Assembly (NCBI GenBank): GCA_014376985.1
Contig: JACMQM010000107.1
Location: 1 to 47,358, forward strand
From: Cytophagaceae bacterium
GTDB taxonomy: Bacteria; Bacteroidota; Bacteroidia; Cytophagales; Cytophagaceae
Direction of reading: 5' to 3'
DNA: 47,358 nt
Part shown: piece by piece, positions 26,619-32,164 of the stretch
Layout of the letters: each line of letters opens with the position of its first letter
Numbering within the stretch: position 1 is the first letter of the stretch
Notes under the pieces: generated by a model
The model's input: only the letters and a program-made list of their open reading frames with translations
Told to the model about the DNA's origin: nothing
Databases searched by the model: none
Made by a program: the position numbers and the translations under genes

Positions 26619-27572
26619 TTAATTTAAACTTTCAAGTGCTGTTTTAATACTTTCGTCTGATGCTTCTGTAAGTTCCAGTGTCAGTGATAAGTCTTCTGTA
26701 ATCGTTGTTTCTTTTGTAGCAAAATATTGTTTACCATCTTTTGTACTGATTACTACAATCATGATATCTTCTCCTACAGGTGTCTGCGCAGATCTGAATA
26801 CTCCATTTGTTGAATGCTCATAGAAACGTGCAATACTATTTAGATTTTTGAAAACGATATAAGCTGCAGTGTTATCTATTGTTCCTCCGTTCGTATAGGA
26901 AAGGCTAATCTTTGTTTTAACAGGGAAGGAATAAAATCTATCACAATTGATCCAGCCTAATTTCGATGTGCTGAAAATATAAGAAGATTGACTTGAATAA
27001 AGAGTTGCTGAACTGTCATTGACCCAATTTGTGCTCGTTACCGGTACGCTGGAACTAGTTGTATTGACAGGCATCCAGTTGAATTGGCCGTTACTCTCAG
27101 AACCCGCAAATAATTGCATTTCTGTATCAACACTGCTAGCAGGTAGTTCGATAAGGATGTTTGTGCCAGAGGCAAGTCGAAGTGTATCTCCATTTGAAAA
27201 AGCGCCTATATAAATTTCGCCACCTGATAGTAAAAGCTCTCCATCACTTGTTGTTGCGCGGTCACTTAGTATCATATCTGATTTTGTATAGATTTCCTTT
27301 ACAGTCACAGAAATGTCGCCAGTAACGGGACTTCCATTTTTAGTAACGAATGCTGATTTAGGAAAGGTAATTACAGTACCTTGTTCTCCTGAAATGGTTG
27401 CATTGGTATGGTCGAGATTAACGGTAAATGATTGTTTAGGAACATCATTTTTTTCAAAAAAGTCATTGATTGTTGTGGCAGGAGCGGGACTCTCCTCATT
27501 GTTTTTCTTGCATCCTGTAAAAGTTAGGCAGGCTGCGGAAACTAAAGCGAGTAAAAAGTGTGAATTTTTCAT
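26619..27572 (-). CDS. hypothetical lipoprotein
   Basis: Lipobox AACLTFTGCKKN; 317 aa ORF. Confidence 0.75.
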   Translation of the reverse strand: MKNSHFLLALVSAACLTFTGCKKNNEESPAPATTINDFFEKNDVPKQSFTVNLDHTNATISGEQGTVITFPKSAFVTKNGSPVTGDISVTVKEIYTKSDMILSDRATTSDGELLLSGGEIYIGAFSNGDTLRLASGTNILIELPASSVDTEMQLFAGSESNGQFNWMPVNTTSSSVPVTSTNWVNDSSATLYSSQSSYIFSTSKLGWINCDRFYSFPVKTKISLSYTNGGTIDNTAAYIVFKNLNSIARFYEHSTNGVFRSAQTPVGEDIMIVVISTKDGKQYFATKETTITEDLSLTLELTEASDESIKTALESLN

Positions 27573-27722: not shown

Positions 27723-28187
27723 GTGTATTCATTCATGAACACTGCCATTCGTAAAGCAACATTACAAGACCTAGAACCGCTTTCTCTATTATTTGACAGT
27801 TATCGAGTTTTTTATGAAAAAGATTCTGACCTCGCGGGTGCGAAAGTTTTTTTGAAGGATCGAATAAACAATAAGGAGTCAGATATTTTTGTCGCTATTG
27901 ATGCAACAGGCAACATGACAGGCTTCATCCAGTTGTATCCCATTTTCTCTTCCACACGCATGAAACGCTTTACCCTGTTGAATGATTTATTTGTTCATCC
28001 ATCATACCGTGGACAGGGCATTTCAAAAGCGCTGCTGTTTGAAGTGCAAAAATTTACTAAGGAAACAGGCAGTTGCGGATTGATGTTGGAAACAACAAAA
28101 ACAAATGTTATAGGCAATAGCTTATATCCTGCTGTTGGATTTGAATTGGATGCAGAACATAATTATTATACCTGGGATACAAAATAA
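27723..28187 (+). CDS. GNAT-family N-acetyltransferase
   Basis: IRKATLQDLEPLSLLFD, LNDLFVHPSYRGQGISKALLFEVQKF; start may be 27735. Confidence 0.9.
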   Translation: MYSFMNTAIRKATLQDLEPLSLLFDSYRVFYEKDSDLAGAKVFLKDRINNKESDIFVAIDATGNMTGFIQLYPIFSSTRMKRFTLLNDLFVHPSYRGQGISKALLFEVQKFTKETGSCGLMLETTKTNVIGNSLYPAVGFELDAEHNYYTWDTK

Positions 28188-28223
28188 TAATGGTTCTACT
28201 CTAAGATTTGGTTATTAGAGTTT

Positions 28224-28340
28224 GCGTTAGGGATTGAGCCATTGTCTGAGCTCTTTTTCTTTGATTTTCATCTTGGGTGAGAAGACAGGTTGGATTCAAA
28301 GAAAAAAGCGAGTGGCGAAAGCCCGGCCCGAAGGGAGCGC
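28224..28340 (+). ncRNA. putative structured RNA / palindromic repeat element, copy A
   Basis: Closing stem GCGTT (28224-28228)/AGCGC (28336-28340), internal hairpin TTTTTCTTTGA (28254-28264)/TCAAAGAAAAA (28296-28306); second copy on the opposite strand. Confidence 0.5.
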
Positions 28341-28480
28341 CATGGATTTATCAAATAGGATTTACTTGTATTAGATTTACTTGTGTTATATAACCTGATG
28401 TATATGATTATTAAACATAATAAGCTAATCATAAAACGGAATCATTTATCCTTTAAAAAATAGTTAAGGCGACTTTAAGG

Positions 28481-28587
28481 GCGTTCCCTTCGGGCCGGGC
28501 TTTCGCCACTCGCTTCCCGATTCTGCAGCACGTTCAATAAAAGCCTATATGTCGGGAGAGCTCAGACAATGGCTCAATCCCTAACGC
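28481..28587 (-). ncRNA. putative structured RNA / palindromic repeat element, copy B
   Basis: Minus strand GCGTT (28587-28583)/AACGC (28485-28481); hairpin TCCCGA/TCGGGA at the same relative position as the hairpin in copy A. Confidence 0.5.
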
Positions 28588-28705
28588 AAATCAACAAAAC
28601 TTTAACATCGTTAAGAGTAGGATCATATAGTAAAGTAGTAACGCAGCAAGTTTCGGGTTTTATTGCTATGCGAAATAATGTAAGTTTGATACAGTATGAT
28701 AAGGT

Positions 28706-29548
28706 ATGAGCAAGCAAGAGGAAATTAATTACAGCAGAATAGCGGAAGCGATCGAGTATATCCGTTTGCATTTTAAAGAACAGCCAAGCCTGGAGCATAT
28801 TGCCGAACAACTGCATCTTAGTCCTTTTCATTTTCAACGCTTGTTTACGGACTGGGCAGGAGTGAGTCCTAAGCAATTTTTACAATTCATTAGTGTAAAC
28901 TATGCCAAACAATTGCTGAAAGAAAAGCAGGCAACTTTGTTTGATGTAGCAGAAAAAACAGGACTATCAGGTACCGGAAGATTACATGATCTGTTTGTGA
29001 AGATAGAAGGCATGACTCCGGGTGAATACAAAAATGGAGGCGAACAACTTTCGATTTCATATAGCTTTGAAGAAAGTCCGTTTGGTAAATTGATTGTTGC
29101 TTCAACGATGAAAGGTATTTGCTACATTGCTTTTTTACAAGACAAAGAAAAATCTGTGCAGGAATTACAAGCATATTTTCCTAAAGCTGCTTTCCAATTC
29201 ATAGAACAACCACTTCACAAAAAAGCACTCCGTATTTTTGAACAAGATTGGAAGGGTATAGCGCAAATAAAATTGCATTTGAAAGGAACAGATTTTCAAT
29301 TGAAAGTATGGGAAGCATTATTGAAAATTCCATCGGGAAGCTTAACAACTTATGCAAGCATCGCCGAACAAATAGAAAGTCCTACTGCCTCAAGAGCTGT
29401 AGGCACAGCAATTGGCAGTAATCCTATTGCTTTTCTAATCCCTTGTCATCGTGTCATTCAATCGAGTGGTATCATTGGCGGATACATGTGGGGGCCAACC
29501 AGAAAGACTGCCATCATCGGCTGGGAAGCGGCACGCGTTAATTCATAA
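28706..29548 (+). CDS. Ada-like bifunctional protein: AraC-type HTH plus methylated-DNA--protein-cysteine methyltransferase
   Basis: HLSPFHFQRLFTDWAGVSPKQFLQFI; FQLKVWEALLKIPSGSLTTYASIAEQI...NPIAFLIPCHRVIQSSGIIGGYMWG. Confidence 0.93.
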   Translation: MSKQEEINYSRIAEAIEYIRLHFKEQPSLEHIAEQLHLSPFHFQRLFTDWAGVSPKQFLQFISVNYAKQLLKEKQATLFDVAEKTGLSGTGRLHDLFVKIEGMTPGEYKNGGEQLSISYSFEESPFGKLIVASTMKGICYIAFLQDKEKSVQELQAYFPKAAFQFIEQPLHKKALRIFEQDWKGIAQIKLHLKGTDFQLKVWEALLKIPSGSLTTYASIAEQIESPTASRAVGTAIGSNPIAFLIPCHRVIQSSGIIGGYMWGPTRKTAIIGWEAARVNS

Positions 29549-32164
29549 TTATTTTAAAGCGCGCTCGGCCATTGTTTGTAACGGTTTGGTTACCGTAGTT
29601 TCTGCAATGGCATGAAGTCTTTCCAATAAGGGTTCAAGTGTTTTAAAACGATCGTTTGTGCCTACACCTATTTTTCGCATAAAATCATGGGCCATTTCCA
29701 GGTATTGTTTCTCAAACTTACTTGTCTTGTCGAAGGCAATTAACATGCGCACCATCATCTCTACATGGTACGGCATTACGGCATTTTTATGCGCAATATA
29801 ATAAGTGCAAATAGCATTCAAATACTTTTTCTCTATGCCGTCTTTGTCTTCAGCAAATGCAAACAATGCAGCCTTTCTGGAAAGCTCAAGCATAATTTTA
29901 TCACGCTGTACTTTGCATTGATTTTTAACCGGATTGGCGGCTAATAACTCATCTATTCTAATTAGGTTAAGATCTTTATCATAAAGAGTTTTAGCCCATT
30001 CATCGATTTCGGTGACTTGAACTTCCAGAAATAGAAAAAGTATTTTCGGGTACAATTTTTTTTCTGCAGCGCTTGTCTTTCCGGGCTTCAGAAGGTATGC
30101 TTTCAATGTAGGGTAAAAACTATTGTCCTTACAATAAATACTTCCTGGCATACATTTTCCAAGTTTAAAATCAAAAAAACTTCTTCCTTTGTCCATTTGG
30201 TACTCACGAAATTTGATGCTTTTACCTTCTCCCGCTTTGTTTTTGTTGACCATCAAGTCAGGCTGTGATCTGCCATAATCCAGTAAAACTTGCAATGGCA
30301 TATAAGCAGGTTGCTGAGGAATAGATATTTTATCCAATATAGAAGCATCTATTTTTTTCTTTTGTATGGCGCTGATCATAGTAAGCATACATTGTCTCTG
30401 AAAGATCATGTCTTGTTCTATGATCAGATCTATGTAATCTTCCTTTTGAGGCTCTTCTTTTGCTTGCTGCAATAATTCGTCTACTGCAAGGAAAGAGCCC
30501 TGCAGAGAATAAAGAAGATACTCTTCTGTGGATATTCCCAGTAGCGGTTTGTTACTGTGAAAGAGTTTAAATTGCTGATAAAAATTAACAACAAGCAATT
30601 TTCCGGTCATGTCTGAAAAGAAAATATCCAGTTCTTCTTTTTTGAAATAACCGGCTGTATACTGTTTGATCAGCCAATTTCTGAGGGCCGCTATCTTTGC
30701 TTCAAATACACTCCGGTGATCAGGATCTGCCCGTTTAAGATAATCGGCTAACAATGCGTATTGTTTTTTTATAACAGACAGTTTTTCTTCCTTGGTAAAT
30801 TTTCGTTCGGTGTAAAGCTCGATATAAGCATAACGATGCTTGGATAACCAATGCTCAAGTTGTTTGGAATGTATGGTATCATTCACCAGTACTCTAAGAG
30901 CCGAGGTGTCTTTAGTTTTCCATTTGGCAAAAGGGGTCGAAGGTAAATCTTTAAAAAAGGCTGACCAATTTTCTGTGCATTCAATCGTCGCATCAATAGA
31001 ATCCTTTTCTCTCTTTTGCAAGGCATCAACCATGATTTGAGATCTTGACCTTGCTAATGCCATGTTGGCCGTTGAATCTCCTTCTACAGAAGCATAAGCT
31101 TTAATGGAAATTTTTCGTAGCGAAAGATTTTCGGCTCTTAAATAATTGTTTAAAGGTTCTACCGCACCTTTAAAATCCATGACTTCATTCTTTTCAAACG
31201 GAACAGTAAATTCTTTTCGCTCCATAAAGGCAGGGGTGAAGGGTCCGTAACATTCGAAGCCCGTTACTTTTTTACATGGCGTAACGTTTTTAGTTTTTTC
31301 CATTTCATCTACTTCATCCTGAATAAAATTATCTGAGCAGAAACTGGAGTCTGTAATAGGAAGATCAAACGGTATATTGAAATAAAGGGTGTCAAAGGAA
31401 ACAGTAAGTAAGTCTTGATTTTTCCTTTTAAAAAGAAAAGTGCATTCCGTTACTGAATGGGCTAGAGTGCCAGTGTAAAAAATAAACGGCCATTCATTCT
31501 TGTATAAATTTTTATCACTGGAAAAATATTTCAGTGGTTTATTTTCCATTTCACTCATCTCAAGAAGATGTGGCGTCATGTTTTTATGAAAGGCATCAAG
31601 GTATATTTTCAACCTGTTCATGTAGATCAAGCTGTCCTTACGAGAAGATTGCTGGGCTTGCTGAATAAACAAGGTTGTTAGTTTTTCATCGTAAGATGTT
31701 GTACTATCCATCATGATTTGCTGTTTCCAGTTATCTGATTTTACTAAATCAGGATAGTCGCGGGAGATTTTTTTCTCCATGTTTAGGATACCGTCAGACT
31801 GTATTTTTTTGGATTGAGTTTTTGCTTGTAGTAAGATGTTTTTTTTCATCTGCTCACGCATTGCTTTATTGTCAAGAGTAAGAACCGCATGATCATTCAA
31901 GCGAAAGGAAAGGTTCGCTTTTTTGTTTTTAAGAAGTTTGGTAATCGCTTGTCTTCCTTTTATAAAAAACAGTACGGTATCTGAATCCAATTCTATTCGA
32001 AAATCTGCCCTGCTGAGTGTGCGTATTTCTCGCTTTCCTTTTAGCTCTAAGGCTTTTTGTGGAATATTGATTTTGGAATACTGATTGGCAGGATCAATAT
32101 GTTGAGCGCATAGCAGGTTTGAGAAATGACATAGTAATGCCATGACAAGAAGCATCTGTTTCAT
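29549..32164 (-). CDS. large secreted hypothetical protein with an OmpA-like segment
   Basis: Signal peptide; FEKNEVMDFKGAVEPLNNYLRAENLSLRKISIKAYASVEGDSTANMALARSRSQIMVDALQKRE resembles OmpA-type peptidoglycan-binding domains. Confidence 0.65.
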   Translation of the reverse strand: MKQMLLVMALLCHFSNLLCAQHIDPANQYSKINIPQKALELKGKREIRTLSRADFRIELDSDTVLFFIKGRQAITKLLKNKKANLSFRLNDHAVLTLDNKAMREQMKKNILLQAKTQSKKIQSDGILNMEKKISRDYPDLVKSDNWKQQIMMDSTTSYDEKLTTLFIQQAQQSSRKDSLIYMNRLKIYLDAFHKNMTPHLLEMSEMENKPLKYFSSDKNLYKNEWPFIFYTGTLAHSVTECTFLFKRKNQDLLTVSFDTLYFNIPFDLPITDSSFCSDNFIQDEVDEMEKTKNVTPCKKVTGFECYGPFTPAFMERKEFTVPFEKNEVMDFKGAVEPLNNYLRAENLSLRKISIKAYASVEGDSTANMALARSRSQIMVDALQKREKDSIDATIECTENWSAFFKDLPSTPFAKWKTKDTSALRVLVNDTIHSKQLEHWLSKHRYAYIELYTERKFTKEEKLSVIKKQYALLADYLKRADPDHRSVFEAKIAALRNWLIKQYTAGYFKKEELDIFFSDMTGKLLVVNFYQQFKLFHSNKPLLGISTEEYLLYSLQGSFLAVDELLQQAKEEPQKEDYIDLIIEQDMIFQRQCMLTMISAIQKKKIDASILDKISIPQQPAYMPLQVLLDYGRSQPDLMVNKNKAGEGKSIKFREYQMDKGRSFFDFKLGKCMPGSIYCKDNSFYPTLKAYLLKPGKTSAAEKKLYPKILFLFLEVQVTEIDEWAKTLYDKDLNLIRIDELLAANPVKNQCKVQRDKIMLELSRKAALFAFAEDKDGIEKKYLNAICTYYIAHKNAVMPYHVEMMVRMLIAFDKTSKFEKQYLEMAHDFMRKIGVGTNDRFKTLEPLLERLHAIAETTVTKPLQTMAERALK

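Follow-up and report, generated by a model that had tools for sequence, protein, structure and literature searches.

An amplified, extragenic relative of Flavo-1 with exchangeable hairpins in a Cytophagaceae bacterium: a probable REP-like DNA element

Why do two inverted copies of one repeat carry hairpins of different sequence at the same position, each with complementary arms? The copies, A and B, lie in contig JACMQM010000107.1 of a Cytophagaceae bacterium (assembly GCA_014376985.1, a draft of 3.88 Mb in 389 contigs), of which positions 1 to 47,358 were analyzed as a whole (the window). They are arranged tail to tail between the genes for a GNAT acetyltransferase (27735-28187) and an AraC-type/O6-methylguanine methyltransferase (28706-29548) (Table 1). 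Two large neighboring open reading frames on the minus strand, 29549-32164 and 26619-27572, had no Pfam match at E 0.001. When the sequence was reread, the coordinates and letters given in the original prediction for both hairpins, termed H1 here, were found to be correct.

Table 1. Features of the two repeat copies and their spacer, in window coordinates. R1 is the covariance model built from class I copies.
Feature	Position	Strand	Remarks
Copy A, class I element	28224..28340	+	R1, 91.4 bits
Copy A helix P1, 5' arm GCGTT	28224..28228	+	partner 28336-28340 AGCGC, one T.G
Copy A helix P2, GGG	28230..28232	+	partner CCC 28322-28324
Copy A hairpin H1, TTTTTCTTTGA / TCAAAGAAAAA	28254..28306	+	arms 28254-28264 and 28296-28306; free loop 31 nt
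Copy A hairpin H2, CCC-GAA-GGG	28327..28335	+	GNA triloop
Copy A helix P1, 3' arm	28336..28340	+	
Spacer A-B	28341..28480	.	AT-rich; sequence unrelated to spacers of other pairs
Copy B, class I element	28481..28587	-	inverted relative to A; R1, 89.2 bits
Copy B hairpin H2, CCC-GAA-GGG	28486..28494	-	
Copy B hairpin H1, TCCCGA / TCGGGA	28515..28557	-	arms 28515-28520 and 28552-28557; free loop 31 nt
Copy B helix P1, 5' arm GCGTT	28583..28587	-	partner 28481-28485 AACGC

The element termini are GCGTTAGGG and AACGCC. Copies A and B are complementary to each other in 100% of the outer 34 nt and 97% of the inner 36 nt, whereas the segment from GAGCTC to AGCGAG holds a different hairpin in each. The 3' block of the terminal helix P1 forms T.G in copy A (GCGTT/AGCGC) and T-A in copy B (GCGTT/AACGC), as had been noted before. 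The spacer also contains a 15-bp tandem direct repeat at 28359-28388 (GATTTACTTGTATTA / GATTTACTTGTGTTA).

Copies A and B belong to a large family, whose members were gathered from searches and from retrieved stretches of the genome. With 150 candidates scored per genome and E<=1e-4, R1 had 123 matches in the genome of the window and 33, 68, and 46 in three congeners. DNA searches of the same genome, in which half-copies were counted, matched copy A 61 times and copy B 45 times, and the 13-mer GTTAGGGATTGAG occurred about 95 times. Three related classes were found in this genome: class I, to which copies A and B belong, class II (GATCGAGTGGAAAGCCCG...) and class III (GCGTGAGGGATAGNAGCGGAAAGCCC...). 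None of the copies in this genome was within a large open reading frame. In 35 further genomes from the same family and order, the 13-mer GTTAGGGATYGAG was not found, save for two single matches. Single class I-like copies were found elsewhere in the class, in a Flavobacterium MAG (L156) and at L186, L194, G258, G350, G225, and G095. The named genomes richest in the repeat were the Chitinophagaceae/Cytophagaceae MAGs RYN_299, RYN_301, and C_No_T20_C_bin.142.

Comparison among copies showed that H1 is maintained as a hairpin. With TGAGCTC and AGCGAG as anchors blind to pairing, H1 was paired in 96.2% of cells over its first seven positions, across 123 class I copies drawn from related genomes. 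When the partners were shuffled among copies, the mean was 67.0% and the maximum of 2000 shuffles was 73.3%. The 37 distinct arm pairs included TTTTTCT/AGAAAAA, TTCCCGC/GCGGGAA, TCCCGCC/GGCGGGA, TCCGCCT/CGGCGGA, and TTCACGC/GCGTGAA. Thus, the earlier claim that complementarity is kept while sequence changes holds well beyond the two copies, and non-complementary H1 arms, named beforehand as the observation that would count against it, hardly ever occurred among the copies. With pairing-blind anchors, P1 also covaried, being 98.7% paired vs. 93.0% after shuffling (maximum 94.6%); its variants were GCGTT/AACGC and GCGTG/CACGC, and GCATT/AATGC was also seen. Because the shuffles preserved column composition and not relatedness, these comparisons overstate significance for related copies, and the case for the fold leans also on the hairpin swaps at orthologous loci described below. 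By itself, folding energy was unremarkable, with z-scores of -1.9 and -0.8 as DNA and -1.5 and -0.3 as RNA. The fold signal is comparative and would be missed by folding energy alone. Moreover, G.T exceeded A.C at H1 positions 1-6 (8:1) and in P1 (10:4), 18 vs. 5 in total, and the sense strand had the lower energy of the two strands in 203 of the 216 unique copies when folded with DNA parameters and in 191 of 216 with RNA parameters, from which the sense strand appears to be the one that folds. The loops were also considered as a common sequence element; this was rejected, as their residual similarity was very weak (A-B 6.49 vs. 6.28 shuffled).

In six same-type comparisons between species, identity was 97.0% (516/532) for core and stems, 76.7% (138/180) for loops, and 71.4% (257/360) for flanks of 30 nt on each side. 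At several loci, H1 was swapped while the place and core were unchanged. For instance, the TCCCGAC hairpin of C77 was replaced by a TCCGCC hairpin in C222 and L190. Further H1 swaps at orthologous or near-identical loci were found between C143 and L154, C367 and L151, and C316 and L142, and in the second element of C144 vs. L173. H2, the side hairpin next to P1, was also swapped (C154 vs. L176). Since H1 and H2 are replaced whole within a constant core, complementarity is maintained by exchange of whole modules. Such replacement in a conserved framework is an unusual form of covariation, in which modules change rather than single pairs. Judged from these sequences, gene conversion between copies that share the core would be the simplest route of exchange, and it could also account for part of the core conservation. 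Together with the 123 copies, the P1 covariation, and the swaps, the identities given above bear out the original prediction that the pattern fits selection on folding, as RNA or as an extruded DNA hairpin, better than simple duplication. The search for clean empty sites yielded none; those scored as empty were, where read, finder misses or imprecise gaps. The flanks of the element in contig C77 (near 573) and in contig C222 (near 4079), where H1 differs, were 87-95% identical, which reflects a duplication or else a mixture of strains in the MAG.

What kind of element is it? An Rfam search at the gathering threshold returned no match. Copy A aligned over the full length of the model of Flavo-1, an Rfam small RNA found across Bacteroidota (RF01705), with 14.1 bits, below the gathering cut-off of 42. 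At a lax threshold, the plant microRNA family MIR393 (25 bits against 60) ranked above Flavo-1; this match spans the palindrome of the copies and spacer and was rejected as chance. R1, on the other hand, matched Flavo-1 elements that pass the Rfam cut-off over all 85 positions with E-values from 3e-9 to 4e-4, including those of other genera (L211, 3.3e-9; L209, 2e-8; L215, 2.6e-8; L210, 6.3e-8; L213, 1.6e-6). Class III copies of the genus were intermediate, with 29-34 bits, and the genome of the window also has two Flavo-1 elements, L229 and L230, that pass the cut-off and share the same termini. A common fold was obtained for class I, class III, and canonical Flavo-1 copies; it consists of P1, a bulged A, P2 (GGG/CCC), internal loops, H1, and H2; the class II example had the same arms and a different minimum-energy fold. 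Homology and a shared fold with Rfam-passing Flavo-1 elements were thus both found. By sequence comparison, the repeat is a diverged and amplified relative of the Flavo-1 RNA that scores far below the Rfam cut-off. To our knowledge, no function has been assigned to Flavo-1 since its entry into Rfam in 2010.

Similar to Flavo-1, the core of the repeat consists of P2, a 2-bp stem, internal loops, and an apical hairpin, and in the relatives L209-L218 the core is likewise flanked by the terminal helix and H2. Different from Flavo-1, whose core is of the AGCGGAAATCC type, the core of the repeat is GAGCCATTGTCTGAGCTC, and class I is amplified in one genus. P1 and H2 of the repeat lie outside the Rfam model, which ends short of both, and both are present in most copies read from the family and order. 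These sequences suggest that the model, without helix P1 and hairpin H2, may be too short. In G230, a Flavo-1-rich genome from another genus of the class, most canonical copies lacked the GCGTT/AACGC helix and H2, whereas L269, L270, and L274 had both. The copies L269 (6120) and L270 (3148964), with a GCGTG/CACGC helix, were identical including the flanks read, which suggests a recent duplication. Among L249-L278 of G230, the apical hairpins often held another palindrome, for example CTTCGACAAGCTCAGTG or a variant of it, which looks like nesting of other repeats at the H1 position.

The kinship with Flavo-1, which Rfam lists as an sRNA gene, raises the possibility that the repeat is a structured RNA, either a small RNA family or a set of cis-regulatory or UTR structures. 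Such an RNA would share the Flavo-1 architecture, would account for the covariation, and would fit a sense strand that folds best with RNA parameters too; some Flavo-1 matches of F. psychrophilum also lie within 5' transcribed regions (PMC9723704). However, singletons between co-directional genes, called by a simple open-frame rule, were oriented at random in the genome of the window (21 same-sense, 20 antisense) and were mostly antisense in G230 (4 same-sense, 14 antisense; two-sided binomial ~0.03). A copy number >100 also speaks against RNA, as do the inverted pairs, some of them in gaps between divergent genes. In the transcriptome of F. psychrophilum, Flavo-1 matches are sense or antisense alike and many are outside transcribed regions, with no consistent strand or transcription (PMC9723704). 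Moreover, 152 of 170 H2 triloops were GNA, the middle base varying freely (GAA 80, GCA 51, GGA 12, GTA 9), and GNA and GNNA loops are reported to give extraordinarily stable DNA mini-hairpins (PMC4686876). GNA loops are also found in RNA, and their excess here is partly shared ancestry. Neither this second hairpin with its GNA loops nor the Flavo-1 kinship was part of the original prediction. Jointly, the orientation counts, the F. psychrophilum data, the GNA loops, and the inverted pairs favor DNA, and none of them alone excludes RNA. We thus consider a structured RNA unlikely, and the choice between RNA and DNA that had been left open before leans to DNA. With more than 100 natural variants per genome and orthologous copies in related species, the amplified genus makes this question directly testable.

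A bidirectional transcription terminator would agree with intergenic hairpins, of which many are 3' of stop codons. No terminator-like site with a GC-rich stem and a T run was found in 28100-28750, however, and copies with GC stems had no T run after the stem. Copies occupied all types of intergenic gaps, with 23 of 90 clusters between divergent genes. A role as terminator is therefore hardly credible.

The tail-to-tail pairs had spacers of 59-140 nt; in the genome of the window, 17 such pairs, 67-140 nt apart, were found alongside 15 head-to-head pairs. A composite mobile unit of A, spacer, and B was rejected, as the spacers are unrelated in sequence. No H1 6-nt stem was shared within any of 22 tail-to-tail pairs (2.5 expected, P 0.05), and no H1 match by similarity was found within such pairs (4.6 expected, P 0.007). 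Folded as one strand, the A-B pair would zip along its arms and push out both H1s into a predicted four-way junction (-108.9 kcal/mol, z -18); identical H1s would instead be predicted to zip into one long hairpin. The differing hairpins might be survivors only, left after the cell deleted identical inverted copies as long palindromes and without selection on folding. No H1 is common to both members of any tail-to-tail pair, and avoidance of palindromes explains this mismatch adequately. It leaves unexplained, however, the complementarity in single copies, the P1 covariation, and the swaps at orthologous single loci. Deletion of palindromes is thus disfavored as the whole story, for which we consider it very improbable, and may act in addition.

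The reading that we prefer, with a probability of roughly 0.6, is that copies A and B are Flavo-1-related, REP-like extragenic DNA elements whose folded sense strand is recognized by a putative protein. We infer the function of the element from its anatomy, and likewise folded single-stranded DNA as its active form, the recognizing protein, and the route of spread. The single-stranded sense strand (5'-GCGTTAGGGAT...AACGC-3') would fold to a three-way junction, in which P1 closes the structure, P2 and the inner stem bear the conserved core, H2 forms a small hairpin at the side, and H1 lies at the tip of the stem. Recognition by the putative protein would involve P1, P2, and the conserved sequence of the internal loops. 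H1 would need only to be a hairpin, so that its sequence and loop could drift freely and its whole replacement, probably via gene conversion or template switching between core-sharing copies, would be tolerated. An overlapping reading differs in that the recognizing protein would serve the host rather than the spread of the element: the copies would be DNA landmarks where a nucleoid protein, a topoisomerase, or a repair protein binds, a role that has been proposed for REP sequences; they would be selected per site and hardly or not at all mobile at present. Consistent with it, core and stems are vertically conserved at orthologous loci while loops and flanks drift, and the location of the copies is strictly extragenic. 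However, copy numbers differ among the sister species, which suggests gain and loss, and the conservation could also result from gene conversion; we regard a host landmark as somewhat unlikely. Tentatively, Flavo-1 might be a phylum-wide structured DNA element with a fixed recognition core and a swappable hairpin cartridge, whose mismatched inverted pairs would fold to a four-way, Holliday-like junction for a putative enzyme that binds single-stranded DNA structures.

Integron attC sites act as folded single strands whose ends are conserved and whose terminal loop is free. The repeat, as a folded single strand, would be similar in both respects. Different from attC, which has RYYYAAC at the 5' end and GTTRRRY at the 3' end, the repeat has GTTAGGG and AACGCC, respectively, and no gene cassettes are found between its copies. 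REP sequences are short, extragenic, high-copy, and hairpin-forming, and often occur as inverted doublets with short spacers (PMC3116915). Similarly, the repeat is short, extragenic, palindromic, hairpin-forming, and high-copy, and it occurs in inverted doublets with short spacers, single copies being commoner. Different from REPs of 20-40 nt, however, it is ~85-120 nt long with a three-way junction and has no GTAG or CGTC tag at either end. No bias for a replication strand was seen in G230 (12:9 and 5:4), as judged coarsely from 20 sampled points of an irregular GC skew. The RAYT-like genes of the genome are not flanked by the repeat either: none of 11 PF01797 matches was flanked, in a draft of 389 contigs from which a gene could be missing. 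Partnership with these 11 Y1 transposase matches was thus rejected, and the single match that was read in detail carries inverted repeats of its own. On both sides of this RAYT-like Y1 transposase gene (L036:360-1015, gene at 415-954) lie its GC-rich repeats (CCTATGTGAAG...GGCACCAAtaaATATTGGCACC and similar), which form a separate REP family.
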